Under the pieces are notes generated by a model, which worked only from the letters and a program-made list of their open reading frames with translations, did no database searches and was not told the DNA's origin. This document shows, one piece after another, positions 1,537-59,573 of a stretch of 64,000 nt of DNA. A program made the translations under genes and the position numbers. The stretch's first letter is position 1. Each line of letters begins with the position of its first letter. Source of the stretch: a virus; IMG/VR virus record IMGVR_UViG_3300037493_003528, positions 1-64,000 of that record. The stretch is one strand, 5' to 3'.

Positions 1537-1708
1537 AATATCCAGTTCGAAGTTGTTACCAAAAAATAAAAATGGTTATTACTATACAACCAGTCTTGAA
1601 CAAGCAATAAAGATTTTCAATGTTAAATATCCTATGCATACAATAAAAGAAATTTATAAGTTGTCATCAGGTAAAAAAATAATTTATTACTGTATACAAG
1701 TCCCATGA
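1508..1708 (+). CDS. Small hypothetical protein
   Basis: 66 residues, lysine-rich, no family recognised. It overlaps the previous gene by 29 bases and its stop overlaps the ATG of the polymerase gene, a coupling that supports it being translated. A second in-frame ATG at 1523 would shorten the overlap to 14 bases and is an equally good start; neither has a strong ribosome binding site. It contains the pair 'YYYTTSLEQAIKIF' and 'KKIIYYCI'. Confidence 0.5.
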   Translation: MKTTKMEPIEISSSKLLPKNKNGYYYTTSLEQAIKIFNVKYPMHTIKEIYKLSSGKKIIYYCIQVP

Positions 1709-4269
1709 ATGAAATTTGCGCACGCTGTGGTTTACACAAAGATTGTCACACTCCATTTATGGAGTCACATGGCTCTGATGAACCATTGGTTTTGATAGTA
1801 GGAGAAGCACCTGGAGAGGATGAGGATTCGCAGGGTAAACCTTTTGTTGGTAAGGCAGGGAAATTACTTAGGACAGTTTTGGAAGAGGTTGGATTTGATG
1901 TAAAGAGGGATATAAGGTTTACAAATGTTGTACGCTGTCGTCCTCCGATGAACAAGATAACGAAAAAAGCCATTCAATACTGCTCCAAATTTGCGTTGGA
2001 AGAGATAGAACAATACAACCCAAATATGGTTTTCTTGTTAGGTAATAGTGCGTTATCAGGGATACTTGGTGAAACTGGTATTACGAATTGGAATGGTTCC
2101 ATTATCGATAAGAATGATAGGTTATACGTGCCATTGTACCATCCAGCATATTTGTTACGTAATCCGCAACCCATGGACCAGTGGTTATCTGCAATGATGA
2201 CAGCATTTGATAGACTCGTTGCCGATCCAGATAAGATTACGGCATCTAGTATGCGATATTCTTATCCAAAAACAATGGATGAATTGTTTGAGATGAAAAA
2301 GTATCTTGATGAGTTCGAGTTCATAGCGTATGATACAGAGGTACGGTATCTTGATGCCTTCAATGCGAATAACATTCTTATTTCGGTATCATTTGCTGCA
2401 GGGGATGTAGCTTATAGTGTTCCAATACATCATTCAGAAGCACCTTGGAAGAATATTGATATGGTTAAGGAAATTATAGTTGATATTTTGCGATCACACA
2501 ACGGAAATATTATAGGTCATAACATAAAGTTTGACCAAAAACATACGTATACAACATTGGGATATTGGTTCGATGCTGGTGGTGATACAATGTTGATTAG
2601 TTATTTGCTGGATAATAGGTCGGGTACACACGGATTAAAGCGTTTGGCAGGTGTTTATATTGGGATGTATGAGTATGATTCTGTGTTAGTAGATTATGTG
2701 CGTGAGCACAAAGATGCGGATCCAAAGCGTGGTGGGTCGTATGAAAATATTCCATTAAGCATTTTGGAAACATATTCGGCTATGGATGCAGCAGCAACTC
2801 TATTGTTGGAAGAGAAATTATATCCAATGCTGTCAGACAAGCAAAAGGAATTTTATAGTGGTTTGTTTGTTTCAATATCAAATTTGCTTGGTGAGATTGA
2901 GATGAATGGTTTTATGATAGATGGATATATAGCGGATAGGTACGTTAGGATTTATTCGTCTATGCGTGACAAAATATATGATGAAGTAATTTCTGATCCT
3001 ATTGTTAAGAAGTTGATAAAAAGTCATGTTACTGCACAGAAAGCCGAAGATGAATTTAGGATTTCTAAGAAATTACATGTGAAGAAATCAGTACCATATA
3101 GATTTAATCCTGGCTCACCTGCAGCAATGGTGGAATTAGTTTACGTGTTTGGTAAGACAAAGGTGACTTATACAACAATCAAAGGTGCTCCATCTACAAA
3201 ATCTATTTATATGAAGAAGTATGAAGGAAAGATGCCAGTTTTGGCAATAATACGATATTGGAAATTATTATCAAAAATGATATCAACATATTTAGATCCA
3301 GCTGTTAATGGTCGTTGGGTATCTACGATTGATGGTAAGGTGCGTTGTTCTTACAATATGCACGCAACAAAAACTGGTCGGTTATCGTCTACGGATCCAA
3401 ATCTTCAAAACATTCCTACACCTGAGAAAGAGCCTGGAACGTTGCTTGAGTATTTACCAATAAAGAATGTTTTTACGACATCATTCGAAGATGGTGTTGT
3501 CATGTCAGCGGATCAGTCTGGTATGGAGTTGAGGGTATTTGCAGCATTATCGAAGTGTACGTCTATGTTGGAGATTCACAAATCGGGTGAAGATTTCCAC
3601 AATATGGTTGCGTCAATGGTGTCTCACATTCCTGCAGATAGTGTTCCAAAGCATATACGGTATAAATTCAAGAAGGTTAACTGGACATTGATCTATGGTG
3701 GTAGTGCGTTTACGTTATCACAATTGGATGGTTTTCCCATGGATGAAGCTGAGGAATTGGTTAAGAGTTATTATGATAGATTTCCAGAAGTTCCTGAATA
3801 CATGGAACAGTGTATAGAATTTTCTGAGGATAATAATTATATCGAAAGTCCATTTGGTAGACGGTTACATCTATATTACATAAATGACAAATATCAGATT
3901 AAGTTGCGCAATCATGATAGAAGGACGTGCGTTAATATGCCTGTTCAATCGGGGTCATCTGATCTTGTTTTGAGTGGAGGTGTTATAATTTCTAGGAAAT
4001 TAAAAGATCTCGGTCTTAGGTCCAGGATAGTTAACACTGTTCACGATTCTATTATTTTGGATGTACCAAAATCTGAAATAGCTATGACTGCTGCATTGGT
4101 TAAGTATAGCATGGAAAATGTAGTTAATTTAGCACCAACATATTTTCCAATTGTAGATTTTAGTTGGATGACATGTCCTTTGGTTGTAGATATAGAAATT
4201 GGATCACATTATGGAGCAGAGGAAAAATATGAAGTCAGTAAAGAAGATTTACAAAAAGTTAGATTTTAG
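1705..4269 (+). CDS. Uracil-DNA glycosylase fused to family A DNA polymerase
   Basis: 854 residues in three parts. Residues 1-170 are a family 4-type uracil-DNA glycosylase: ICARC with later 'RCRPP' and 'YCSKF' cysteines for an iron-sulphur cluster, the active-site loop 'GEAPGEDED' near 33 and 'HPAYLLR' near 146. Residues 200-365 are a DnaQ-like 3'-5' exonuclease with 'YDTEVR' (DxE) near 209, 'GHNIKFDQ' and 'YSAMDAA'. Residues 430-854 are PolA fingers and palm with motif A 'ADQSGMELR' near 602, motif B 'KVNWTLIYGG' near 656 and motif C 'VHDS' near 779. SPO1-type phages with hmU DNA also carry a UDG-like domain on their polymerase, as I recall. This is the replicative polymerase. Confidence 0.92.
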   Translation: MNEICARCGLHKDCHTPFMESHGSDEPLVLIVGEAPGEDEDSQGKPFVGKAGKLLRTVLEEVGFDVKRDIRFTNVVRCRPPMNKITKKAIQYCSKFALEEIEQYNPNMVFLLGNSALSGILGETGITNWNGSIIDKNDRLYVPLYHPAYLLRNPQPMDQWLSAMMTAFDRLVADPDKITASSMRYSYPKTMDELFEMKKYLDEFEFIAYDTEVRYLDAFNANNILISVSFAAGDVAYSVPIHHSEAPWKNIDMVKEIIVDILRSHNGNIIGHNIKFDQKHTYTTLGYWFDAGGDTMLISYLLDNRSGTHGLKRLAGVYIGMYEYDSVLVDYVREHKDADPKRGGSYENIPLSILETYSAMDAAATLLLEEKLYPMLSDKQKEFYSGLFVSISNLLGEIEMNGFMIDGYIADRYVRIYSSMRDKIYDEVISDPIVKKLIKSHVTAQKAEDEFRISKKLHVKKSVPYRFNPGSPAAMVELVYVFGKTKVTYTTIKGAPSTKSIYMKKYEGKMPVLAIIRYWKLLSKMISTYLDPAVNGRWVSTIDGKVRCSYNMHATKTGRLSSTDPNLQNIPTPEKEPGTLLEYLPIKNVFTTSFEDGVVMSADQSGMELRVFAALSKCTSMLEIHKSGEDFHNMVASMVSHIPADSVPKHIRYKFKKVNWTLIYGGSAFTLSQLDGFPMDEAEELVKSYYDRFPEVPEYMEQCIEFSEDNNYIESPFGRRLHLYYINDKYQIKLRNHDRRTCVNMPVQSGSSDLVLSGGVIISRKLKDLGLRSRIVNTVHDSIILDVPKSEIAMTAALVKYSMENVVNLAPTYFPIVDFSWMTCPLVVDIEIGSHYGAEEKYEVSKEDLQKVRF

Positions 4270-5894: not shown

Positions 5895-6836
5895 ATGAAA
5901 CAGACGGATATTGGTTTTGCTGGTAGGTCACGAGCGGAAAATCTTGCGAAGTTGCGTGACAAGATATCGAGGGTTGATGTCTCAACAGGTTCATCTGGTT
6001 TTATGCGGATTCAGGATGGACGAAATATTATCCGCATTCTTCCGCAGGTTGGGAAGATGGAATACTTCTTCCAGACAGTCGGTCGGCACATGATTCCTCC
6101 CGATGGTAAGAAATTCTTCTATTGTCCCAAATTTACCAGCGAAGGTGAGAAGGATTGTCCCATTTGCGAATATGTAGAGGAACTGTATAAGACAGGTGAC
6201 AAGGTAAATAAGGCTCTGGCAAGCGAATTGCGTGTCAAGAGGATGTTTTGGATGAATGTCATAGATCGTGCCAACGAGAAATCTGGTCCACAGATCTATA
6301 CGCCTGGAGTTACAGTTTTCGGTGCTGTCAGTTCCCTGATCGGCGATCCTGATTATGGTGATATCTTCGATTTAGAAGACGGCATTGACCTGATTATCGA
6401 AAAGTCTGGTAAAGGTTTGGATACTGAATATCAGGTTAAGACTAAGCGTTCTTCTACACCGCTATCTGACGATCCTGCCATGGTCAAGAAATGGATAACT
6501 GTTGCAAAAGATTTGTCCTATGTAGAAGTATCCAATGATAAAGAGGAGGACAAGGAGTTGTCAGTTGGGCATGCGGTTTATGTTCTTCCTTATGATAGAC
6601 TTGATAAGGAGTTTGGTTCGATTTCAGATATGGACGAAGATGATGAAGAGGAAGAGGAAGTTAAACCGAAAAAGCGTGTTGTAGCTGTTGAAGATGACGA
6701 AGATGACATTAAACCTTTGAAGAGGACGGTAGTAGATTTGGATGATTCTGATGCAGATGAGGACGATGAGGACGATGAAGAAAAGGAGGATGTTGTTACA
6801 CCTTCTCGTAGGATAGCACGTCGTAGACCACACTAA
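5895..6836 (+). CDS. Single-stranded DNA-binding protein, gp32-like
   Basis: 313 residues from ATG 5895, chosen for its GAGAGGTG site; an upstream ATG at 5826 would add a non-conserved leader. It has an OB-fold core and a zinc motif like T4 gp32: 'VGRH', then 'FFYCPKF' and 'DCPIC' (H-x11-C-x10-C-x2-C). The C-terminal about 90 residues are extremely acidic (runs of D and E), as in SSB tails that recruit partners. It would coat ssDNA in replication and recombination. Codon use is richer in G/C-ending codons than neighbours, as expected for an abundant protein. It is followed by a strong terminator. Confidence 0.85.
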   Translation: MKQTDIGFAGRSRAENLAKLRDKISRVDVSTGSSGFMRIQDGRNIIRILPQVGKMEYFFQTVGRHMIPPDGKKFFYCPKFTSEGEKDCPICEYVEELYKTGDKVNKALASELRVKRMFWMNVIDRANEKSGPQIYTPGVTVFGAVSSLIGDPDYGDIFDLEDGIDLIIEKSGKGLDTEYQVKTKRSSTPLSDDPAMVKKWITVAKDLSYVEVSNDKEEDKELSVGHAVYVLPYDRLDKEFGSISDMDEDDEEEEEVKPKKRVVAVEDDEDDIKPLKRTVVDLDDSDADEDDEDDEEKEDVVTPSRRIARRRPH

Positions 6837-6847
6837 CTTACGTCTAC

Positions 6848-6884
6848 AAAAATGCTACACCAAAACATCGGTGTAGCATTTTTT
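6848..6884 (+). terminator. Intrinsic terminator after SSB
   Basis: AATGCTACACC at 6851-6861 pairs perfectly with GGTGTAGCATT at 6870-6880 around an 8-base loop. It is preceded by AAAA and followed by a TTTTTT run, so it could stop transcription in both directions. It is the only classical terminator I see in the first 45 kb. Confidence 0.9.
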
Positions 6885-6894
6885 GTGAGGTAAT

Positions 6895-8106
6895 ATGAAA
6901 TTCATACACTTTTCAGATACGCACATTGGAGTTGATACCCTAGGATCACTGGATCCTACTACAGGTATCAATCGTCGTGTTTTAGATTATCTTGATATGC
7001 TGGATTCAATAGTTGATTTTGCGGTGGATGAGAACGTGGATTTAGTCCTATTTACAGGCGATGCGTTTCATGTAAATTCACCGCATCCAACGTACCTTAA
7101 TGAGTTTTCCAGACGTATTGTAAAAATGCGTGAGCAGTGTCCTGTGGTATTATTGGTTGGGAATCATGATACATCTCCTAGAGCAACAGCATCTGCAATT
7201 GATATTTATGCATCCCTGCAAATGGATGGAATCGTTGTTGGAAATAAGTTGGAATTACACGTTATTGATACGAAAGCTGGACCAGTTCAGGTTGTAACTG
7301 TTCCATACCCAAATAGGAGTTTATTGCGAAATAGTGTCGTTGGAGTAGATAAAGGTACAATTTCATCTTTATTGCGTAAACAGCTCACCTGGAGTCTCCA
7401 TGACGTTTCTGTGAGTATAAATAAGACGATTCCCTGTTTGATGGCTGGACATTTTTCTGTTGATATTGGAGTTAAGGGATCTGAAACAGATTATGTTCTT
7501 GGTGTCAATGCAGAGTTATGTTTGGATGATATTGCCGATCCATTATATGATTATGTAGCGTTGGGTCATATACATAAATATCAAAATCTAACTGCTGGGA
7601 TGAGTGATGTTCCACCAGTTGTTTATGCTGGGTCGATAGAAAGGGTGTCATTTAACGAACAGAATGAGGCAAAGGGATTTGTATTGGGTGAAATAGTAGA
7701 TAAGAAAACTACTTGGGAATTTATCGAATTGGAAGCACGACCATACAAGACAGTTGAAGTTGTTTGTGAGAACGGTAATGCAACGAAAAAGATATTAGCG
7801 AAGATATCAAAAATGGATCTTAGAGGTGCGGTTGTTCGTTACGTTGTAAGTTTACCTGAGGAGTATACTTCATCAATAGATGATTTTACTATTCAGTTAG
7901 CATTTGAGGAAGCAGGTGTGTTTGCCGTTGGTGCAAGAAAGGTTAACGTTGTTCGTGCTGCAAGTCCCAATAACAGGTCAGAGGGATTCAATGTTGGTTC
8001 TAATCCAATAGAATTATTATCAAAATATTTTCAGCTACATCAGATTGATAAATCAGATATTAAACAATTAATGGTGTTAGCAAAAGAAATTATGAGTGAG
8101 GTATAA
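6895..8106 (+). CDS. sbcD: SbcD/Mre11-like nuclease
   Basis: 403 residues. All calcineurin-like phosphoesterase metal motifs are present: 'FSDTHIG' at 6, 'FTGDAFH' near 54, 'LVGNHD' near 86, 'MAGHFS' near 183 and 'LGHIHKYQ' near 223. This is the Mre11/SbcD/gp47 subunit, which processes DNA ends with an SbcC/gp46 ATPase. No SbcC gene is in this window, so the partner must lie elsewhere or come from the host. The ATG has a GAGGTAAT site immediately after the terminator, so a promoter may lie in the same small gap. Confidence 0.9.
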   Translation: MKFIHFSDTHIGVDTLGSLDPTTGINRRVLDYLDMLDSIVDFAVDENVDLVLFTGDAFHVNSPHPTYLNEFSRRIVKMREQCPVVLLVGNHDTSPRATASAIDIYASLQMDGIVVGNKLELHVIDTKAGPVQVVTVPYPNRSLLRNSVVGVDKGTISSLLRKQLTWSLHDVSVSINKTIPCLMAGHFSVDIGVKGSETDYVLGVNAELCLDDIADPLYDYVALGHIHKYQNLTAGMSDVPPVVYAGSIERVSFNEQNEAKGFVLGEIVDKKTTWEFIELEARPYKTVEVVCENGNATKKILAKISKMDLRGAVVRYVVSLPEEYTSSIDDFTIQLAFEEAGVFAVGARKVNVVRAASPNNRSEGFNVGSNPIELLSKYFQLHQIDKSDIKQLMVLAKEIMSEV

Positions 8107-8107
8107 A

Positions 8108-9160
8108 ATGAATGCTGAAAGCGTTGTTACTAAGGAAGATTTGAAAAGCATTCTGGGGGACCTGGAAAAGAGTAAGAATAAGAAATTTGACGTTTCTTTA
8201 TTATCAGATGATAACTCACCTTGTGTTGTAACAGAATGGATGTCAACAGGTTGTCTGGCGTTGGATACGATTATGGGTGGTGGGTTGCCTATTGGAAGAA
8301 TGACTGAGATCTATGGTGATAATTCAACAGGGAAATCATTGATAGCATCACAGGTTGCTGCGATTGCACAGGATGATGGAGCACTTGTTGTTTATGTTGA
8401 TACAGAATCAGCAGTCAGTTTGCCGATGATGAAGGAAGTTGGTGTTGATATTGATAAACTCATTTACTCTGCTCCAGACACAGTTGAAGAGGTTTTCGAA
8501 TTATTTTCTAGTGCTGTTGAAAGTAAGGTAAAGCGTTTCCCAAATAAACGTATGTTGTTAATATGGGATTCTGTTGCTGCAACGTCTGTGGAACAGGAAA
8601 TGGAAAATCCTTATGGCAAGGCAACCATGGGTCGTCATGCTCAGATCATCAGTCAATCAATGAGGAAGTTTACGAGAACTATATCGAAACAACATGTGTG
8701 TTGTTTGTTCCTGAACCAAACTCGAGAAAAGATTGGAGTTATGTTTGGTGACAATGTTGCTACATTTGGTGGTAAGGCTATTGGTTTTCATGCTTCTATT
8801 CGTATCCAATTGAAGATGGGTCAGAAGATAAAAACAGATGGTAAGAAAACTATTGGTATAAATAGTCGTGCTACTGTTGTTAAGAACAAGGTTGCTGTAC
8901 CATTCAAGATGGCAGAGTTACCAATATATTTTGGGCACGGTATAGATGATGCACTCGCAAGTTTCGAATATTTAAGAGTAGGAGAGTTATTGGTTCGTAA
9001 AGGAAGTTATTACACAATAGTTGGAATACAAGCAGAACCATTTACGAAGGCTGGTTGGGAAAAGTTTTATGATGATAACTATGAAAAGATCGCAGAGATT
9101 ATATCGAAAACTGATTTGATTGATAATGAAATCGAGGAATCTAGTGAGACCAACGAGTAG
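8108..9160 (+). CDS. recA: RecA-like recombinase (UvsX type)
   Basis: 350 residues from ATG 8108, which follows GAGGTATAAA; a GTG at 8096 is in frame but lies inside the previous gene. It has Walker A 'GDNSTGKS' near 74, 'VVYVDTESA' near 94, Walker B-like 'MLLIWDSVAATS' near 150, loop L1 'GKATMGRHAQIIS' and 'FLNQTREKIG' near 202. It carries out strand exchange in recombination-dependent replication, together with the neighbouring SSB, SbcD and exonuclease. The C-terminus overlaps the next gene by 17 bases. Confidence 0.9.
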   Translation: MNAESVVTKEDLKSILGDLEKSKNKKFDVSLLSDDNSPCVVTEWMSTGCLALDTIMGGGLPIGRMTEIYGDNSTGKSLIASQVAAIAQDDGALVVYVDTESAVSLPMMKEVGVDIDKLIYSAPDTVEEVFELFSSAVESKVKRFPNKRMLLIWDSVAATSVEQEMENPYGKATMGRHAQIISQSMRKFTRTISKQHVCCLFLNQTREKIGVMFGDNVATFGGKAIGFHASIRIQLKMGQKIKTDGKKTIGINSRATVVKNKVAVPFKMAELPIYFGHGIDDALASFEYLRVGELLVRKGSYYTIVGIQAEPFTKAGWEKFYDDNYEKIAEIISKTDLIDNEIEESSETNE

Positions 9161-10121
9161 TGAAGAGCCTGTTACACTAATAATTGATGGAACAAATATG
9201 GCGTATCGTGCCAAATATAAGTTTCAGTTATCAAACAAAGGTATTGATACATCAATTACATATGGTTTTATCAAGATGTTAATCCCTCTAATACGAGATT
9301 ACAATGTTAACAGCGTTATTGTAGCGTGGGATGGTGGGATACCAACATTTCGTACGAAGTTGGTACCAGAATACAAGGCAAACAGGCATATTGATGAAGA
9401 TCCTGAAGAGCGTAAGGATTTCAAGAGACAAATGGTGGAACTCCATATACATGCATTACCAGCTATGGGAGTTGTTAGTATTTACAAAGACAAAGTCGAG
9501 GCAGATGATATTATATACCATGCAGCAAAGGTATCAAGTGGAAAGGTTTTGATTGTTAGTTCTGATAAGGATTTACTGCAATGTTGCAGTGAAAGCGTTT
9601 CTGTGTTAAATCCATCTAGAGATAAGGTTTATACACCAGAATTATTGGAAGATGAGATAGGGATACCTGCTAAGGATTATATACATTGGAGAGCATTACA
9701 AGGTGACAGTAGTGATAACATATCAGGAGTTTTTGGTATAGGTGAAAAGACTGCTACTAAATTATTCAAGGAGTTTGGATCACTCAGTGGAATATGCAAT
9801 GCTGCAGATGGTTGTAATCCAGCTGGAAGATTATCTGATAAACTTGGGGATGCTGTTAAGTTGTTTGGAATGAATAGGATTAACAATAATGTAATGGCAA
9901 TGGCATTGTTTAGGGATCGCTGTGGGTGCAGATTACTGATGTATAATGAAATTAGAAACTATCAACCATTAAGTAAGGTAAGGCTCATGAATTATATGAT
10001 GAAGAACGGTTTTGCATCTTTTGTTGATACATTGCCTGGATTAGCATCAAGGTTGGTTAAACCTGCTTTGAATATTCATGAACGTTATCCAGCAATTTGT
10101 GTGGAAAGGATATCAATATGA
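9144..10121 (+). CDS. 5'-3' exonuclease, FEN/PolA-N type
   Basis: 325 residues from GTG 9144, chosen because GAGG lies seven bases upstream; TTG 9120 and ATG 9126 are also in frame. It has 'LIIDGTNMAYRA' near 12, 'VAWDGG' near 60, 'VEADDIIYHAA' near 117, 'IVSSDKDLLQ' near 137 and the helix-hairpin-helix 'GVFGIGEKTATKLFKEFG'. These aspartates form the two-metal site of FEN-type nucleases that remove RNA primers. The phage polymerase has no 5' nuclease domain, so this gene supplies it in trans. Confidence 0.85.
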   Translation: MRPTSSEEPVTLIIDGTNMAYRAKYKFQLSNKGIDTSITYGFIKMLIPLIRDYNVNSVIVAWDGGIPTFRTKLVPEYKANRHIDEDPEERKDFKRQMVELHIHALPAMGVVSIYKDKVEADDIIYHAAKVSSGKVLIVSSDKDLLQCCSESVSVLNPSRDKVYTPELLEDEIGIPAKDYIHWRALQGDSSDNISGVFGIGEKTATKLFKEFGSLSGICNAADGCNPAGRLSDKLGDAVKLFGMNRINNNVMAMALFRDRCGCRLLMYNEIRNYQPLSKVRLMNYMMKNGFASFVDTLPGLASRLVKPALNIHERYPAICVERISI

Positions 10122-10612
10122 GTGAGATAACTATTATAGGTATAGATCCAGGGAAGCATGGTGGTATAGCAATTGTCAATGATGATTTTGTGAGAGTTAT
10201 CCCAATTCCATTGGCAGGTGATGATGTTGATTTAGCTGGTATTCATACTTGGTTGTGTGAGTATGTTCCTTTTAGTAGAAAGCATAATACTGTCATTGCA
10301 TATATTGAGAAGGTTGGTGCTATGCCAAAGCAGGGAGTTACATCAATGTTTTCATTTGGTTTTACAACTGGTGCACTCCATGGTATAGTTGCAGCAATGA
10401 TGATACCACGGTTTATGGTAACACCGCAAGCGTGGAAGAAAGAAATTCTGGTTGGTACTGCAAAAGACAAGAACTCAGCGATAGAATATTGTAGGAGAGT
10501 TTACCCAAATGTTTCGTTGATGGCTACTGATAGATCCAAAACTTGCCATGATGGTATGGCTGATGCATTATGTATAGCATGCTTTGGTGTTTTACAACAT
10601 GGCAATATTTGA
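10118..10612 (+). CDS. RuvC-like Holliday junction resolvase
   Basis: 164 residues from ATG 10118, which overlaps the previous stop (ATGA). It has 'IIGIDPGKHGGIAI' at the N-terminus, 'AYIEKVGAM' near 64, 'TPQAWKKEIL' near 99 and 'DGMADALCIA' near 149: the D, E, (D) and D acidic residues of the RNase H-fold RuvC family. It would resolve replication and recombination branches before packaging. The GxxSxxSFGFTTGALHG stretch is typical of the phage branch. Confidence 0.8.
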   Translation: MSEITIIGIDPGKHGGIAIVNDDFVRVIPIPLAGDDVDLAGIHTWLCEYVPFSRKHNTVIAYIEKVGAMPKQGVTSMFSFGFTTGALHGIVAAMMIPRFMVTPQAWKKEILVGTAKDKNSAIEYCRRVYPNVSLMATDRSKTCHDGMADALCIACFGVLQHGNI

Positions 10613-11297
10613 TACAAATGCAGTTTTGGATCTTGTAAATAGTTACAACAAAACTAAATCAGATGAAACAGCTGAGCTTATTTTGGAATTGTGCAATCCT
10701 CTTATGGTTTACATTATTAATATTTACAATACAGTTGATAATGATGATGTTTTGCAAGAAGTATCAATAAAGTTGTTAGCATCATTGAAGAGTTACAATG
10801 GTGATAAAGGAAGCGTTCATACGTATTTCTCACGAGTTATACGTAATTGTTGCATAACATATTATCATAAACATATTGCTAAGGAAACTCATTACGATTT
10901 GGATGATGAAACAATTAATTTTGGTGTATACATAAATGAGAATGTAATTTTGCAAGGTTTGATGAAGCGCAACAAAGTGAGATTTCCCAGTGTAGAATGT
11001 ATAGATGAAATAACCGAAATTGTTTATGCGTCTATAAATGAGGGATTGGATAAGGGTCGGACATTAGTAAGGGAAATATCGAATAAGTACGGTTTGTCTA
11101 GGGATAATTCGTTGGTTATATATAGTAGTTCTTTGGTGTATTTGAGAATGTTACTATACAATGATTGTAATAATAATAATAATTATGATTATTTATTAGA
11201 TGAGTTTTCGTTATCAGGTGAGATAAGGGAAGTTTTGGGTGATGAAATATTCAATAAGCTGATAAATATATTCTATGGTTTGATAGTCCATTTATGA
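10599..11297 (+). CDS. RNA polymerase sigma factor-like protein
   Basis: 232 residues from ATG 10599, overlapping the resolvase by 14 bases. The block 'DDVLQEVSIKLLASLKSYNGDKGSVHTYFSRVIRNCCITYY' (near 47-88) matches sigma-70 region 2: acidic start, then 'F.sYn..kG.f.tYl..i.rN...d.'. Region 4 is not clear; the C-terminus is low in complexity (NNNNNYDY) and ends in a hydrophobic helix. It may be a late-gene specificity factor comparable to SPO1/T4 gp55-type factors. Its cognate promoter may be one of the recurrent intergenic motifs noted in this window. Confidence 0.65.
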   Translation: MAIFDTNAVLDLVNSYNKTKSDETAELILELCNPLMVYIINIYNTVDNDDVLQEVSIKLLASLKSYNGDKGSVHTYFSRVIRNCCITYYHKHIAKETHYDLDDETINFGVYINENVILQGLMKRNKVRFPSVECIDEITEIVYASINEGLDKGRTLVREISNKYGLSRDNSLVIYSSSLVYLRMLLYNDCNNNNNYDYLLDEFSLSGEIREVLGDEIFNKLINIFYGLIVHL

Positions 11298-13335: not shown

Positions 13336-15399
13336 TCTATCATCATCACAATGAAATCTTTTAAGGGTCATAAAGGTATTCCTGGCCATCAAGGAGGATC
13401 GTTAGCTAGGAAGTATGAATCCAATGTGCAACTTGGTGAAGGTACTCAAAGTACACCACCTAGAACTGGTGATGTTCCAAAACCAATATTCGAAATACAC
13501 GATGCACGTAAATTAATGAGTAACTTTTATTCTGTAGCAGTTTGTATTCGTGGTGAAAATTTAGGTCGTATAATTGCTGTTAATGCAGATTTCAATCATA
13601 GTTATATGTTACATCAGGCAGGACTAAAAACATCGATAGATGACTGGGTAAGGTTTACTGTTGCAAAAAGAACAGATGGAGGGCAAATTTTATTGGGGGA
13701 TTATTACTTTGCTGGTCAAAAAGTAGTGCAAGGAGAAGATAAGATTTCTGCAATGAATAATATTTATATGGCTTGTGATTATCTAATAGCTGCAGGATTA
13801 TCAGATGATACACCATTGGGAATTACATCCAATTTTCGTAATATGTTGGAACTGACTGTTCATAAAGAGATAGAACTGAAATCGTTTCCTAAGCACAAAG
13901 GTATTCTTGGTCATCAGGGTGGCTCATTAGCCAGAAATGCAGTACAGGAACAACCAGTAACCAATAACAATAAAAATAAATGTCAATTTCCTGGGCAACG
14001 GCTCACGTTAATGGAGCAATTGATTTACGATGATATGACAGATCTTGGAACAGACTTCAAATATTCTACATACGATTCTTCATACACGAATCCTCCACCT
14101 GGAAGTCCTGGATTTGAATTGCGATTAATGACGAAGGTTAGTAAGATTTTACAAGAAACACCTAATAACGATTTTGTGGTGCATCAACGATATATTGGCA
14201 AAGACGGTTATTGTGAGTACGTTAAAGATGATAAGGGTGCGTACATATCATTGCCTGTTTCGAAGGATGATATGCTGTTATTCAAGGAAAAGGTTCATAA
14301 ACTTGTAAGAAACAGGGGTGAAAATATAATACGGGAGTTAGGTTTACCACCCGATCTTGATACACTGGTTAGTGAACTAAAATATACAGGTGATTTTCGA
14401 TCTTATGAATTTCAAGATAAATTGCAGAAAATGGTTGATAAAACAGATTTAACTGGTTACACGAGAGATGAGATACAATATCTCATACCGTATTATTATG
14501 AATGGAAGAATAAGGAAAAGATTGGATTACATTGGGAAGATGACTATCCTGATAATGATGTTAAAAATAAGGATTTTGACCACATGTTGGGCACGGTTGG
14601 TTACACCTTTACCGATGAATATGACTTTCAAGTGAAGCATCAGATAGCTCTTGGTAACTTGGATCCCGATTTCGTTAGTTTTCATTTATTAGCTCCTAAT
14701 CTTGCACGTCCGCAAAGTTCTGCCACTGGTAAGTGGGAATTATTACCATCGGTAATGTATCATTGCGCAACCAATGCTGGAGCTATTATGGCTACACAGT
14801 TGAAATCTCGTAGGGAATTGGGAATGAGAAATGGTACAGGTTTGGGTGGGGGAGAGGATGATACAATATCAATTGGTGTAAGTGAGGAAGTTATCAAGAA
14901 TGTCGAGCGTAGCATACACGAAGCACATGCTGTTGTGACAGGTAAGATTAAGTTTGCAGATTTGCTTCATGCTATGAAAGTTGGTGCTGGAGCAAATGGT
15001 GTACCATTCGGACTAACAACTGAGCCTGCTTGGTATCAAAATATTTTGGATATGGAAAATGGAATTGTTCCTGAAGACAAACCAGGACAATTGATAGAAA
15101 AGATATGGGATTTCTATCATCTTGATTTTGTTGGATATAGGCAAGGAGCTGGTGGTTACGAGAATCCTGTGTTTTTTGGAACAGATTATAAAGCGTTAGC
15201 AAAGTTGGATCCAACAGAGTTCAAGGTTATAAAGTTATCTCCAGCTAATCCAAATGCTAAAGGTAGTAGGATGAACTCGATGACAGAATGGCGATTGATT
15301 GGTGGTGACACTGTAAAAATGGATGAAGTTATTGATTACTACGGACCTGAAGATTATGATGAGATTTTAGGTTATTATCAGAAAGGAGTGCCTAGATGA
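13333..15399 (+). CDS. Double-tagged large protein of unknown function
   Basis: 688 residues with two copies of the Gly/His tag: 'SFKGHKGIPGHQGGSLAR' near 9 and 'SFPKHKGILGHQGGSLAR' near 184. Each tag is followed by a different domain: about 160 residues of mixed alpha/beta, then about 490 residues. The long part contains 'LHWEDDYPDNDVK', 'GKWELLPSVMYHCATNAGAIMA' and a C-terminal 'ENPVFFGTDYKAL' block. I do not recognise either domain. The internal tag strongly suggests fusion of two neighbouring tagged genes. Unlike most tagged genes, the N-terminus has an extra six residues before MKSF. Confidence 0.75.
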   Translation: MSIIITMKSFKGHKGIPGHQGGSLARKYESNVQLGEGTQSTPPRTGDVPKPIFEIHDARKLMSNFYSVAVCIRGENLGRIIAVNADFNHSYMLHQAGLKTSIDDWVRFTVAKRTDGGQILLGDYYFAGQKVVQGEDKISAMNNIYMACDYLIAAGLSDDTPLGITSNFRNMLELTVHKEIELKSFPKHKGILGHQGGSLARNAVQEQPVTNNNKNKCQFPGQRLTLMEQLIYDDMTDLGTDFKYSTYDSSYTNPPPGSPGFELRLMTKVSKILQETPNNDFVVHQRYIGKDGYCEYVKDDKGAYISLPVSKDDMLLFKEKVHKLVRNRGENIIRELGLPPDLDTLVSELKYTGDFRSYEFQDKLQKMVDKTDLTGYTRDEIQYLIPYYYEWKNKEKIGLHWEDDYPDNDVKNKDFDHMLGTVGYTFTDEYDFQVKHQIALGNLDPDFVSFHLLAPNLARPQSSATGKWELLPSVMYHCATNAGAIMATQLKSRRELGMRNGTGLGGGEDDTISIGVSEEVIKNVERSIHEAHAVVTGKIKFADLLHAMKVGAGANGVPFGLTTEPAWYQNILDMENGIVPEDKPGQLIEKIWDFYHLDFVGYRQGAGGYENPVFFGTDYKALAKLDPTEFKVIKLSPANPNAKGSRMNSMTEWRLIGGDTVKMDEVIDYYGPEDYDEILGYYQKGVPR

Positions 15400-22441: not shown

Positions 22442-23153
22442 GACTTTCCCTAATCCTGGACATGAAGGAATCCCTGGACATCAGGGAGGTTCCCTCCCTC
22501 GAGGTGAATCTGCACCAAAACAAGGTAATGATGATGATGCTAAAATAAAAGCAAGTATGTCAAAGTTAGTAACTGTAGATCTTGCAACCATGGAAACTGA
22601 TCCCCCAAAGAAATATTGGATTACTCCACAAAGGGAAATAGTATCAGACACTGTAACAGTTGATCAGTCTCATGCCTTAATGCTTGCTAGACTTATATAT
22701 AGTAATCCAGAATTGGCAAAAGAAAATGGTTTAGATATAAATATTGATGACATCAAGAAAATGTTGGTGAATGATACATATGAGGATACTATATTAGAGG
22801 ATAAGGCTTATCATAATAGATACATGAAGGTGGAATTGAGAACAATTTCATTAAAGCACCCTGAAAAAGCTAACACCATTAGTATATTTACTGGAGAACT
22901 TAATAGTCCTGCATTAAAGAAAATTCAGGATAGGATGGATAAAGGTATGTTGCCAGCTACATATAAAACACCTGCAGGTAAGAAAGAATATTATAATATA
23001 GTATTGAGTGGTTTTTCTGGTGATAAAGTTGTGACGATTAAGACTAATTATAGTGAGCTTATGACATCCACTGGATTCTTTATACCAGAAGGTGATAATG
23101 CATATGAGGCAGGAACACTAAAACATATGAGGAAGGCTAGGTTGATAAAATGA
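22425..23153 (+). CDS. Tagged protein of unknown function
   Basis: 242 residues: tag 'TFPNPGHEGIPGHQGGSLPR' at 6-25, nearly identical at DNA level to the tag of the small ART gene at 21038. The payload is alpha/beta with 'PPKKYWITPQREIVSDTVTVDQSHALMLARLIY' (split 60-92) and 'PATYKTPAGKKEYYNIVLSGF'. The two LEDKAYxxR-like pieces here and in the zeta-type gene are probably chance. No family recognised. It overlaps both neighbours. Confidence 0.65.
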   Translation: MKLIFKTFPNPGHEGIPGHQGGSLPRGESAPKQGNDDDAKIKASMSKLVTVDLATMETDPPKKYWITPQREIVSDTVTVDQSHALMLARLIYSNPELAKENGLDINIDDIKKMLVNDTYEDTILEDKAYHNRYMKVELRTISLKHPEKANTISIFTGELNSPALKKIQDRMDKGMLPATYKTPAGKKEYYNIVLSGFSGDKVVTIKTNYSELMTSTGFFIPEGDNAYEAGTLKHMRKARLIK

Positions 23154-24106
23154 GACTAATTTTCAGAACAAAATCGTTTCCAGATCCAGGTCATAGAGGT
23201 ATTCCAGGTCATAGAGGTGGCTCATTACCACGTAACGAATCTGCATCAGCACCTAAAGAAACACCTAAGGATAAAAAGAAAGTTGAAGAGCCTGCATACA
23301 CTACTGTTAGGACACCAGAATTATCTAAACAGTATAATGACATATTTAAGGGTAGTAAGGTGAATCCTGAAGGTATTGATACAATGGCTGTATACAAAAA
23401 TCCTGATGGAACATGGACTAAGGAAAGACAAGCGTTGCATGACAAAATAATTGATAGCTTTTTTGCTGGTAATACACCTATATTTCGTGCTGGAGAAACA
23501 CCAGTTTCGTATATTCTAGGTGGTGGTCCTGCATCTGGTAAGTCTACACTCGTAAAATCAGGTTTAGTGGATTTACCAAAAAATATGGTTTTTGCTGCTG
23601 CAGATGATATTAAACTTATGCTACCAGAATTTCAATTGTCTATGAAGATTAAGGATGTTGACGGTGCTATTTATGTACATGAGGAATCGTCATATATATC
23701 TAAGGAAATAATGAAAAGATCTGTAGCAGAAGGTTATAATATGCTTATGGATGGAACAGGTGATAATAATATTGAATCATTATCCAAAAAAGTTGTGGAT
23801 ATGAGAACATCAGGTCAGCCAGTGATAGGTTTATACGTAACTTGTGATACTGACATAGCAATTTCTAGGAGTTTGTCTAGAGCCGAGAAAACAGGTCGTT
23901 ATATACCTGAATCTGTTTTACGTAGTAATCACAAATCGGTGTCCATGATTTTCGAGGACATAGTTAAAGCTGGAATTATGGATTCTATATCTTTATACGA
24001 TACGTCTAGTGGTAAAGCTATTGTTATAGCAAGAGCAGTTAAAACAAAATTGGAAATTTTGGATGATAAAGCCTACAAGAGATTTCTTGCTAAGGCAAAG
24101 GAGTAA
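23150..24106 (+). CDS. Tagged zeta-toxin-like kinase
   Basis: 318 residues: tag 'SFPDPGHRGIPGHRGGSLPR' at 9-28, a linker, then 'YILGGGPASGKSTLVKSG' near 122-139 (P-loop), 'FAAADDIKLMLPEF' near 146, 'HEESSYISKEIMKRSV' near 172 and 'LMDGTGDNN' near 190. This is the zeta-toxin/PezT arrangement; zeta enzymes phosphorylate UDP-N-acetylglucosamine and poison wall synthesis, though phage members may have other substrates. No epsilon-type antitoxin is seen next to it, and the next gene is too short and unrelated. Confidence 0.75.
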   Translation: MRLIFRTKSFPDPGHRGIPGHRGGSLPRNESASAPKETPKDKKKVEEPAYTTVRTPELSKQYNDIFKGSKVNPEGIDTMAVYKNPDGTWTKERQALHDKIIDSFFAGNTPIFRAGETPVSYILGGGPASGKSTLVKSGLVDLPKNMVFAAADDIKLMLPEFQLSMKIKDVDGAIYVHEESSYISKEIMKRSVAEGYNMLMDGTGDNNIESLSKKVVDMRTSGQPVIGLYVTCDTDIAISRSLSRAEKTGRYIPESVLRSNHKSVSMIFEDIVKAGIMDSISLYDTSSGKAIVIARAVKTKLEILDDKAYKRFLAKAKE

Positions 24107-43850: not shown

Positions 43851-43914
43851 GGTATATTTATACGACAATAGCAAGTTTAGCAAATTAGACTAAATTTTGT
43901 TATTGGAGGATATT
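43851..43914 (+). promoter_or_regulatory. Leader of the thymidylate-synthase-like gene: two motifs and an RNA stem
   Basis: GGTATATTTA (43851-43860) is followed by CAAGTTTAGCA (43872-43882). CAATAGCAAGTTTAG (43866-43880) can pair with CTAAATTTTGTTATTG (43890-43905) by about 15 bp including G-U pairs and one bulge; because of the G-U pairs it is an RNA rather than DNA palindrome. The stem ends at the GGAGGA ribosome binding site, so it may govern translation of the gene at 43915. Confidence 0.5.
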
Positions 43915-45009
43915 ATGAGTTACATAAATTTTACTACGGCTCTCGTCAACGAACTGGGAAATTTGTTGGATGATGGGAAGTTTGTTGATATTGTAGGACG
44001 TACTGGTGTCAAGTCTTCAACACTTGAACTAACTGGTCGACTCATAACCATAGATAAACCTACTGAGCGTGTTATATGCATTCCTCACAGGAATAATAAC
44101 ATATTTGCTACAGTTGCAGAGACTGTATGGGTTCTTGCTGGTCGCAATGATGTTAATTTCTTATCAAGATATTTACCTAGAGCGGTAAATTTCTCGGATG
44201 ATGGTGTCGTGTGGAGAGCTGGTTATGGTCCCAGACTTAGGAATTATGACGGTGTAGATCAGATAATGAATGTTGTAAATATACTAAAGAGTAACCTTAC
44301 CAGCCGTCAGGCTGTTATATCAATATTTGATCCACGAAAAGATTATGAAGATTCAAAAGATATCCCATGCACAAATTGGATACACTTCATGGTGCGTGAT
44401 GGTAAATTACTCATGTCAATAGTGATGCGTAGTAATGATATAATTTGGGGTGCGTCTGGGATTAACTGGTTTGAGTGGTCTGTCTTACACGAATATGTTG
44501 CACAAGCAGTTGGTGTGGATGTTGGAAAAATGACATATTTTGCAGATTCCCTGCACCTGTACTCAGATCATTATGGTAAAGCAGAGAAAATCGTTAAAAC
44601 ATATACATCTAATATGTATACTGCTTTTGGATTCGAGTCTGATAAGTTAGTCGTTGGTGCTGATATGGATGAAATACTCAGTGAGATTCTTGAAATTGAA
44701 GACATGATATCGGTTAATGCTTATGCTAGGGGAGGCATGACAATCTTCTCAGATCCAGATGCTGGTTTACTGGGTCGTTTTCGGGATATGCTTATTTTGT
44801 GGAATTTCATAAAAATTGACGATACATATGGTATCACACACGTTTTGAATAGTATGTATCGTGAGAATGGTAACTTGGATTTGAGGGTTGCTGCGATAGA
44901 GTATATAACAAGAACAAAGGAATTACCGTCGGGTGTTCCAGTTCATCCAAATGAAATCGCATTTTTGTCACAATTTTCTGCTACAAATAAGGTCACGAAT
45001 TTATTGTGA
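43915..45009 (+). CDS. Thymidylate-synthase-family enzyme, possibly dUMP hydroxymethyltransferase
   Basis: 364 residues from ATG 43915 (GGAGGATATT site). 'AETVWVLAGRNDVNFLSRYLP' near 67, 'IPCTNWIHFMVRDGKLLMSIVMRSNDIIWGASGINWFEWSVLHEY' (split near 148-192) and 'YFADSLHLYSDHY' near 207 follow the thymidylate synthase fold: the nucleophile Cys, the RSxD, the (G)xN recognition and the final HxY. 'MRSND..WG' and a Trp-rich N loop differ from host ThyA. dUMP and dCMP hydroxymethylases belong here. With the hmdU kinase at the left end, 5-hydroxymethyl-dUMP formation is the preferred reading; plain thymidylate synthase is possible. Confidence 0.75.
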   Translation: MSYINFTTALVNELGNLLDDGKFVDIVGRTGVKSSTLELTGRLITIDKPTERVICIPHRNNNIFATVAETVWVLAGRNDVNFLSRYLPRAVNFSDDGVVWRAGYGPRLRNYDGVDQIMNVVNILKSNLTSRQAVISIFDPRKDYEDSKDIPCTNWIHFMVRDGKLLMSIVMRSNDIIWGASGINWFEWSVLHEYVAQAVGVDVGKMTYFADSLHLYSDHYGKAEKIVKTYTSNMYTAFGFESDKLVVGADMDEILSEILEIEDMISVNAYARGGMTIFSDPDAGLLGRFRDMLILWNFIKIDDTYGITHVLNSMYRENGNLDLRVAAIEYITRTKELPSGVPVHPNEIAFLSQFSATNKVTNLL

Positions 45010-50684: not shown

Positions 50685-50721
50685 TTGTAGGAGTTTGGTG
50701 ATGAAAACCAAACTCCTACAA
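50685..50721 (+). terminator. Perfect 15-bp hairpin after capsid gene, followed by CAAGTTTAGTA
   Basis: TTGTAGGAGTTTGGT (50685-50699) pairs exactly with ACCAAACTCCTACAA (50707-50721) around a GATGAAA loop. There is no T-run, so termination is uncertain; an RNA-stabilising 3' hairpin for the capsid mRNA is another reading. The motif CAAGTTTAGTA at 50719-50729 starts within the right arm, and the next gene starts 15 bases after it. Confidence 0.6.
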
Positions 50722-57445: not shown

Positions 57446-58930
57446 ATGAAGAATTATTTTCATAAGGATGGTCGGGTGTGGATGCAGCGTAAGAAATTCG
57501 AACCTTACATGCTCCTGCTTCCATACGGCATGACTAACATCACAGATCCTGTTGGTAACTTGAATGCTGTACGAGAGCCTAGTTCCAGTAAACGTGGTGC
57601 AAGCGTAATTACCGATGTAGTTCGTGGTGAGCCTGGATTACCGCAGTTTCAGTTGGAAACACGGTTGCAGAAGACACTGAATTACCTGTTTGGATTGAAA
57701 GATTGCACTGTGCAGATGCAGGCTCATCTTGGTCGTTGTGACCGACCAGATAATTATTTTGCGTCATCTTTGGTAATGCACTGGGAACGTGCGCATCGTG
57801 GTGATTTGGGTATGGATCGTCTCTCTATCGTAGAGGGAGAAAATTCTCCAATTCAGACTCAGGTACCATTTGTTGCGGAAATTGGTCCTATGCTGTTTGA
57901 CATGGACACTGAGTTCTCTTCAGCCAGAACCATTTTTGAGAGTGAAGATATTACTAGTATGTATTTCTTGGGAAGTGAGTGTTTGGAAGATTGCAAATCC
58001 CAGGAAGATGCCGGAGAAAATGGTTATGTTTCTACAACTGCTAAGATTGGTTCTATTACCAATATAGCAAATGTTTGGTCTACAATAGATGCTGGAGAAA
58101 CTTGGGTTCAGACAACCACTAATCCATTTGCTGCTGCACTTGATATATCTGACGTTATTGCAATTGGTACTAAGACGAGTCATCGTGTAATTGTTTCCAA
58201 TGGCACGACCAGAGTAGCTAATCCTGCTCAGGTTGCATATGCGGATGTTAGTATAGTTGGTACAACAACGTGGGTATCAGCTGTAGTAGGTTCTAAAAAT
58301 GGTCAGTTCATTAAAAAACTGTTTTTCTTGGATTGGATGCACGTTTATGCTCTTACCGATGATGGTTACATCTATATGTCAGGTGATGGTGGTGCTTCCT
58401 GGTCTGCAGTTTATTCATCTGGCACTACTGATTTATTGGATATGGGTGGTACTGCCAATGGTGTTTTGTGGGCAGTTGGTGAAACAAGTGTTATCCTTAC
58501 CAGTGGTGATTATGGTGCTACGTGGGATGCAGTTACGGCGCCTGCAGCTTTAACGTACAGTACTGTGTGTGTAACACCTGATGGAACTGTATTGATTGGA
58601 TCATCTACAGGTTTAGTGTACGGTTCGTACGATGACGGTGCTAATTGGTCTACACTGTCGTTACAAGGCATAACTGCTACAGCTGTATCACGTATTAGAA
58701 GTTGGGGAGATTCTAATATTTGGGTGATTGCCGAAACAGCTGGTGGTGGTAAAGCGTTGCGCTCCATTGATGGTGGTGCAACAATCAGGTTGTGGAAGTT
58801 AAATATGCCTACTAATGTGGGATTAAATGCACTGTTCTTGGTAGATACCAATATGGTATTTGTTGGAGGTGATGCTGTTGCTGGTTCTGCATTTATTTCT
58901 AAAACAATATCTAATGTGGTTGGTTTATAA
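57446..58930 (+). CDS. Major tail protein with BNR/propeller domain
   Basis: 494 residues, strong AGGAGGATAAC site. The first ~190 residues look like the tail tube ('YMLLLPYGMTNITDPVGNLNAV', 'VQMQAHLGRC'); the rest has BNR/sialidase-like Asp-box repeats: 'STIDAGETWVQTTTN', 'MSGDGGASWSAVY', 'TSGDYGATWDAVT', 'GSYDDGANWSTL', 'RSIDGGATIRLW'. A beta-propeller decorating a tail tube could bind host glycans. C-ending codons are frequent, as for other abundant virion proteins. It ends before a hairpin and the CRISPR-like repeat. Confidence 0.7.
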   Translation: MKNYFHKDGRVWMQRKKFEPYMLLLPYGMTNITDPVGNLNAVREPSSSKRGASVITDVVRGEPGLPQFQLETRLQKTLNYLFGLKDCTVQMQAHLGRCDRPDNYFASSLVMHWERAHRGDLGMDRLSIVEGENSPIQTQVPFVAEIGPMLFDMDTEFSSARTIFESEDITSMYFLGSECLEDCKSQEDAGENGYVSTTAKIGSITNIANVWSTIDAGETWVQTTTNPFAAALDISDVIAIGTKTSHRVIVSNGTTRVANPAQVAYADVSIVGTTTWVSAVVGSKNGQFIKKLFFLDWMHVYALTDDGYIYMSGDGGASWSAVYSSGTTDLLDMGGTANGVLWAVGETSVILTSGDYGATWDAVTAPAALTYSTVCVTPDGTVLIGSSTGLVYGSYDDGANWSTLSLQGITATAVSRIRSWGDSNIWVIAETAGGGKALRSIDGGATIRLWKLNMPTNVGLNALFLVDTNMVFVGGDAVAGSAFISKTISNVVGL

Positions 58931-58954: not shown

Positions 58955-58990
58955 AGAGCAGTAGGATTTACTCCTTTTTCCTACTGCTCT
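58955..58990 (+). terminator. 12-bp hairpin after the major tail gene
   Basis: AGAGCAGTAGGA (58955-58966) pairs with TCCTACTGCTCT (58979-58990); loop TTTACTCCTTTT. No terminal T-run follows. It is directly upstream of the CRISPR-like repeat and may end or protect the tail transcript, or isolate the repeat RNA. Confidence 0.55.
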
Positions 58991-59002
58991 AAGGATATTC
59001 TA

Positions 59003-59035
59003 GTAGTCTCCCTCATGGGAGACGTGGATTGAAAC
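59003..59035 (+). CRISPR. Solitary type I-C-like CRISPR repeat unit
   Basis: One unit: GTA, then GTCTCCC (59006-59012), TCAT, GGGAGAC (59017-59023), then GTGGATTGAAAC (59024-59035). The 7-bp stem, 4-base loop and the GTGGATTGAAAC tail are the standard form of type I-C repeats (about 32-33 bases), in which Cas5c/Cas5d cuts after the stem and leaves an 11-base 5' handle. I see no second copy, so it is not an array. Phages carrying solitary repeat units can use them as RNA anti-CRISPRs. The tail-chaperone ATG starts two bases after the repeat. Confidence 0.7.
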
Positions 59036-59036
59036 T

Positions 59037-59573
59037 ATGGATAACTTGAAATTGACATCTGGCTTTGTTATATCAATAAAACAATTATCGCCGTACTATT
59101 TGGATTTTATAACTGAAGCGTTCCCTATGCCAGATTTCCCAGTGCGTAAGATTAAGTTGTTTTCTGGGGATATTATTGATTACGATTATGTTTTATCAGA
59201 TACAATTCCTTCTGAGCCTGGAGAGGAGTTGGATTTATATCTGAAATATAAGAGAGTAGAGGTAGAATGTGCAAAAGTTGAAGTTGCTCGTCAGAGAGCT
59301 AAAAGAGATTATTTGCTTGCTACATGCGTATTCATTGAAGATGGACCAATAAAGTTTGAGGATAAAGAGTGGGAATATAGGATGGAAGCAGCATTTCCAA
59401 ACTATAAGATTCCCACACATCCTGGTAGGAGAGCGTTGGCATTCCTGAAGGGAATTGCTATAACATCTAAGGAAGAGATGGAAATGATTATTAGTAGGTG
59501 TCTATATCAGGAGGTAGACATGCAGAGCATAATCACTGCTCTGCAGGGTTTTCGGTCTGAAATGGCACGATGA
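59037..59573 (+). CDS. Tail assembly chaperone, 'G' part
   Basis: 178 residues. The gene lies between the tail tube and tape measure genes, where the G/GT chaperones of siphoviruses lie. The ORF is helical in its second half ('YKRVEVECAKVEVARQRAKRDYLLATC', split). The ATG follows immediately after the CRISPR-like repeat, so GGGAG in the repeat stem, 15 bases upstream, is the only ribosome-binding candidate. The frame ends at 59573; an open +1 frame continues to the tape measure start. Confidence 0.65.
   Translation: MDNLKLTSGFVISIKQLSPYYLDFITEAFPMPDFPVRKIKLFSGDIIDYDYVLSDTIPSEPGEELDLYLKYKRVEVECAKVEVARQRAKRDYLLATCVFIEDGPIKFEDKEWEYRMEAAFPNYKIPTHPGRRALAFLKGIAITSKEEMEMIISRCLYQEVDMQSIITALQGFRSEMAR

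Follow-up and report, generated by a model that had tools for sequence, protein, structure and literature searches.

A solitary type I-C-like CRISPR repeat of 33 nt lies on the + strand at 59003..59035 of a 64,000-nt stretch of viral DNA (hereafter the window; positions 1 to 64,000 of IMG/VR record IMGVR_UViG_3300037493_003528), immediately in front of a tail-chaperone-like gene. On the strength of its sequence, its copy count and a covariance model, we confirmed the element as solitary and as matching the known subtype in both sequence and structure. As to what it does, our analysis leans toward a Racr, an RNA anti-CRISPR in the form of a solitary repeat unit, acting against a type I-C system.

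The element reads GTAGTCTCCCTCATGGGAGACGTGGATTGAAAC and is laid out as GTA-GTCTCCC-TCAT-GGGAGAC-GTGGATTGAAAC, followed by a single T and the ATG at 59037. Its arms (GTCTCCC, 59006-59012, and GGGAGAC, 59017-59023) close the TCAT loop through a perfect 7-bp stem (hairpin at 59006..59023, + strand), and the 12-nt tail GTGGATTGAAAC is exact. Folded alone, the hairpin reaches -13.6 kcal/mol (z -3.4), and the same hairpin also formed in its mRNA context when a 140-nt leader was folded. Type I-C systems are without Cas6, and Cas5c (Cas5d) cuts the repeat, leaving an 11-nt 5′ handle (PMC5965380). The last 11 nt of the tail, TGGATTGAAAC at 59025..59035 (+ strand), are identical to the 5′ handle expected if Cas5c were to cut at the predicted site between 59024 and 59025.

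Allowing up to 3 mismatches, this is the one copy in all 78,810 bases of the virus record. No second repeat, full or partial, was found near the element or in its flanks, and at a single copy in 78.8 kb there is no mini-array of at least two repeats with spacers. Similarly, no match to the Cas5d family was found in the record, Cas5 being the cas gene searched. An earlier note, made from the letters of this DNA, had described a type I-C-like repeat with this stem, loop and tail, solitary and with neither spacers nor cas genes; its description stands on the repeat form and the solitary state, and for the cas genes as far as Cas5 goes, and its coordinates are exact.

For the subtype assignment, we gathered I-C loci by a Cas7c protein search of plasmids and built the covariance model from the repeats of nine arrays, excluding phage repeats; each array belongs to a locus that has I-C cas genes or matches Cas7c. 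The window element scored 26.7 bits, with E=8.2e-6 within the window, where the next-best match had E=2, and E=7.4e-5 across 574 kb, where noise began at E=0.65; by the tool's own statement, these E-values are rough. A chance origin was rejected on this score together with 0 matches in 100 shuffles. The agreement with I-C arrays comprises the stem register, a G-C pair near the stem base and the 11-nt handle, and arrays from Zymomonas (L055), Brevibacillus (L047) and Nitratidesulfovibrio (L056) share with the element the hairpin position, the GTGGATTGAAAC tail and a length of 32-33 nt. Compared with these arrays, the window has one copy, no spacers and no Cas5 in the record, and the element departs from them in two details. 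It has A at position 3, whereas in 9/9 array repeats a pyrimidine there closes the stem with G; the stem base is thus an A-G mismatch, so that Cas5c cutting could be reduced. Its stem register also exceeds the usual one by one pair, a feature shared with the repeat GTCGTCCCCTGTGCGGGGGACGTGGATTGAAAC of an unrelated viral contig (L049; E=1.3e-8 with the same model). In Rfam, the family CRISPR-DR9 covers the same 33 nt at E=0.07 and 20.1 bits, below its gathering cut-off of 45; at the gathering threshold, Rfam gave no match in the window or in the relatives G001, G003, G004, G009 and L017.

The repeat is intergenic, between a stop at 58930 and the ATG at 59037. The gene upstream (57446..58930, + strand) is tail-tube-like by position, and the C-terminal half of its protein carries sortilin/BNR-type repeats; the tail-chaperone-like gene downstream (59037..59573, + strand) begins 1 nt after the repeat. 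An open frame from 59540 to ~59801 that shows no obvious start overlaps the end of the chaperone frame, which suggests that this gene, like other tail chaperones, uses a programmed frameshift; a long tape-measure-like frame follows. Within the gap, a 12-bp hairpin (58955..58990, + strand), at a position common to relatives and with no T-run after it, precedes an AAGGA Shine-Dalgarno-like sequence (58991..58995, + strand). The earlier note had correctly put the repeat between the hairpin of the tube gene and the chaperone. Note that AAGGA lies close to the ATG in the relative G009, whereas it is 41 nt away in the window because the repeat intervenes.

Nine relatives at 60-70% identity were found by means of the capsid protein; pattern searches with the chaperone or the portal-like protein found no close ones. 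The orthologous tube-chaperone gap is present in three of the relatives (G004, G005 and G009), and in 0/3 does it contain the repeat. Instead, the start codon comes only a few bases after a hairpin in each, and G005 and G009 have a Shine-Dalgarno sequence there. From this absence it follows that the repeat was gained in the lineage of the window phage. The possibility, raised in the earlier note, that relatives keep the hairpin solely as a conserved ribosome-binding element is excluded by the same repeat-free gaps.

Relatives do carry I-C-like repeats at other sites. In the 36-kb G009, the nine-array model detected GTCGCTCCTAATTCTGGAGCGTGGATTGAAAC (E=1.8e-8), a near-perfect match to the I-C consensus, inside the portal-like frame, where the copy may be partly constrained by coding, and a second repeat, GTCATTTCTATAACAAGAAGTGTGGATTGAAAC, in an intergenic gap of 279 nt (E=9.3e-5). 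In G001, GTCGCTCACAGAATTGTGAGTGTTGGATTGAAAC (E=0.019) lies about a dozen bases past the major-capsid stop codon; its standing as an I-C-like repeat is moderately supported, and this site is without a repeat in the nine other records (9/9). A near match in G008 was discarded as coding sequence rather than a repeat unit. Among the four family elements (one in the window, two in G009, one in G001) the stems differ, the hairpin and tail are kept, and every copy is in sense orientation, located among structural genes or genes next to them. The nine family records, which are possibly incomplete, gave no match to the Cas5 family, the cas family searched in them.

The exact 30-mer of the window repeat was absent from a genome collection covering 84,980 species by representatives, and likewise a relaxed pattern leaving the stem tip and loop free. 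For reference, SRUFinder accepts a repeat at ≥90% identity over ≥90% of a catalogued one. The viral collections searched did not contain the exact window repeat, and matches to it in INPHARED and plasmids were dismissed as chance matches in coding genes, for example ribonucleotide reductase. One Lysinibacillus plasmid repeat from the plasmid search pointed to real I-C loci. The Lysinibacillus plasmid pSSII-1 (L067) has cas5c-cas8c-cas7c at 6414-10840, a degenerate array and, ~4 kb away, a second group of I-C-like repeats that are divergent (14789-15300); cas3, cas1 and cas2 are not annotated in this 18.8-kb stretch.

One narrow I-C pattern yielded 17 solitary copies, spread over 16 viral contigs, with G009's own among them. 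In L078 (position 1048), L082 (3958) and L086 (2889), a solitary I-C repeat sits between a GAGGAG Shine-Dalgarno sequence and an ATG, much as the repeat of the window does. A single 20.8-kb phage contig has two solitary I-C repeats (L070, 5366, and L080, 1144), the L080 copy starting a few bases after an ATG with in-frame read-through.

How would the window repeat be transcribed? We found no promoter-like site on the + strand just upstream of it. A predicted promoter in the 250 bp upstream, which the window copy lacks, was the published authors' rule for choosing Racr candidates to test and is not a defining feature. The phage family does share a promoter-like motif, CAAGTTTAGTA followed by TATAAT-like letters, which occurs on the sense strand only and often directly follows a hairpin and precedes a gene. 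In the form CAAGTTTAGTATaaTAgAg, the record has 9 exact copies on the + strand and 0 on the − strand, with 0.05 expected per strand; they lie at 1164, 5815, 17644, 25545, 42142 and 50719 of the window and, beyond it, at 67429, 71583 and 73334 of the record, and the relative G005 has 15. The phage also encodes a protein with sigma-70 region 2 (window 10584-11294), a candidate reader of the CAAGTTTAGTA motif. With the nearest upstream copy at 50719, the window repeat is presumably part of a long structural-gene transcript. The intergenic repeat of G009 has the motif 39 nt upstream, which suggests that it would be transcribed near the 5′ end of its RNA.

In the Racr reading, to which we give about even odds, the repeat would be transcribed as part of the tail-gene mRNA and bound by the Cas5c of the host, which would probably cut between 59024 and 59025. 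The upstream RNA, ending in the hairpin, would then retain one Cas5c. The mRNA downstream of the cut would start with a true handle and nucleate a Cas5c-Cas7 filament without a useful spacer. As an abundant late mRNA, the transcript could in this way soak up Cas5c and Cas7 and prevent the formation of new Cascade. The conserved parts of the element fit what is known of processing to an 11-nt handle (PMC5965380) and of the Cas5c-Cas7 clamp on the handle, which nucleates Cascade (PMC7684278), and this fit counts for a Racr. So do the model matches, the solitary state and the strong, different I-C-like repeats in at least one other family member. Further points in its favor are the absence of a Cas5 family match, the repeat-free orthologous gaps, the single occurrence of the G001 copy after the capsid gene, the motif upstream of the intergenic G009 repeat, the inhibition of type I-C by RacrIC1 (PMC10651486) and the solitary I-C repeats of like form in other viral contigs.

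The earlier note had gone further, proposing that the mRNA, if cleaved by Cas5c, becomes a false crRNA with the start of the chaperone gene as its spacer. This is weakened, as a full false crRNA would take a second cut and there is no second repeat. Lacking a defined 3′ end, a normal crRNA would not form, and the products would be decoys; from one cut only the mRNA fragment with the 5′ handle and the upstream hairpin-ended fragment could arise. The I-C-like repeat, its solitary state and the analogy to Racrs drawn in that note are supported; the late position and the missing array match weaken the rest. Against the Racr reading stand the lack of a matching host array among ~85,000 genomes, the failure to find an own promoter near the repeat and the A-G mismatch at the stem base. 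Late position and cleavage of phage mRNA speak against a simple early anti-CRISPR action: a long structural-gene transcript for which no own promoter was found would come late for protecting incoming DNA, and with copies among structural genes, one of them inside a portal-like gene, cutting would damage phage mRNA late in infection. Moreover, the candidate hypermodified-thymine genes of this phage might already blunt DNA targeting.

The main rivals of the Racr reading are passive capture and a Cas5c-responsive leader. That the element no longer has a function, being the remnant of a mini-array of host or phage or a fragment captured passively from one, would agree with its single copy, the off-consensus A at position 3 and the unrelated places at which the family repeats sit. 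Yet the 7-bp stem is perfect and the 12-nt tail exact, with no decay, the flanks contain no partial repeat, and other family members hold intact copies of their own, so we regard this origin as unlikely. The leader hypothesis starts from the position of the repeat between AAGGA and ATG, 41 nt apart, with the same placement in L078, L082 and L086: Cas5c binding or cutting before the chaperone ATG would alter tail-gene translation in an I-C host, the start being normal otherwise. We consider it quite unlikely, given that the other family copies are not at start codons (past the capsid stop, in mid-leader, inside a frame), that nearness to a start codon is expected anyway in the short gaps of phages, and that 13 of the 66 window genes have a Shine-Dalgarno consensus match of ≤3 nt.

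The idea of a phage regulatory hairpin with no more than a likeness to a CRISPR repeat is largely refuted, and we rate its chances as slim: hairpins before genes are frequent in the phage family, and the gap indeed holds another one, common to relatives, but the I-C model score and the exactness of the GTGGATTGAAAC tail argue otherwise, as do the absence of the element in the orthologous gaps and the relatives' elements at other sites, which have the same tail and a different stem. A further reading, in which the repeat between Shine-Dalgarno sequence and start codon would make the chaperone mRNA a Cas5c substrate, so that the phage would both sequester Cas proteins with its late mRNAs and sense host CRISPR through structural-gene translation, the family repeatedly gaining such sites with stems differing to fit hosts, strikes us as highly improbable. 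Finally, a single repeat is a minimal integration target, and the element might accordingly act as a decoy at which Cas1-Cas2 would land to integrate spacers, or as the seed of a mini-array. Viruses do carry both solitary repeats and mini-arrays (PMC11656645), but no leader sequence was recognized and none of the four family elements has a second copy beside it; we give this last idea hardly any credence.

The Racr idea itself is already known, having been published and tested for type I-C: 2,103 solitary repeat units have been catalogued in viruses, and RacrIC1 inhibits type I-C (PMC10651486). RacrIC1, from the acr-racr locus of Bifidobacterium pseudocatenulatum next to acrIC5, is like the window element a solitary I-C repeat in a mobile element and a mimic of the Cas5c substrate (PMC10651486). 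It is co-transcribed with a neighbouring anti-CRISPR gene, its start has been mapped and its effect tested, whereas the neighbours in the window are tail genes and the element is a candidate from sequence. RacrIF1 resembles the window element in that a single repeat ties up the repeat-processing enzyme and Cas7; it belongs to another subtype, type I-F, with Cas6f, has a strong promoter of its own, and its active fragment lies upstream of the cut. Two features are less ordinary: the repeat separates the Shine-Dalgarno sequence of a tail gene from its start codon, and members of a single phage family carry independent copies.

Among the other genes of the phage, a family A DNA polymerase is fused to a uracil-DNA glycosylase domain (window 1705-4266), and candidate hypermodified-thymine genes lie at 288-1169, 23150-24103 and 43897-45006 of the window and at 16821-17897 of L002; these candidates comprise a 5-hmdU DNA kinase helical domain, a zeta-toxin-type P-loop kinase, a thymidylate-synthase-like protein and an amino acid:DNA transferase.

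If the element is functional, repeat mimicry would be carried on a structural-gene mRNA, and not by a small-RNA gene, in environmental phages with hypermodified-thymine genes. This would raise the question of whether late expression can still counter immunity. The recurrence of I-C repeats at non-homologous sites in relatives would then be direct evidence that mimicry of CRISPR repeats is selected for.
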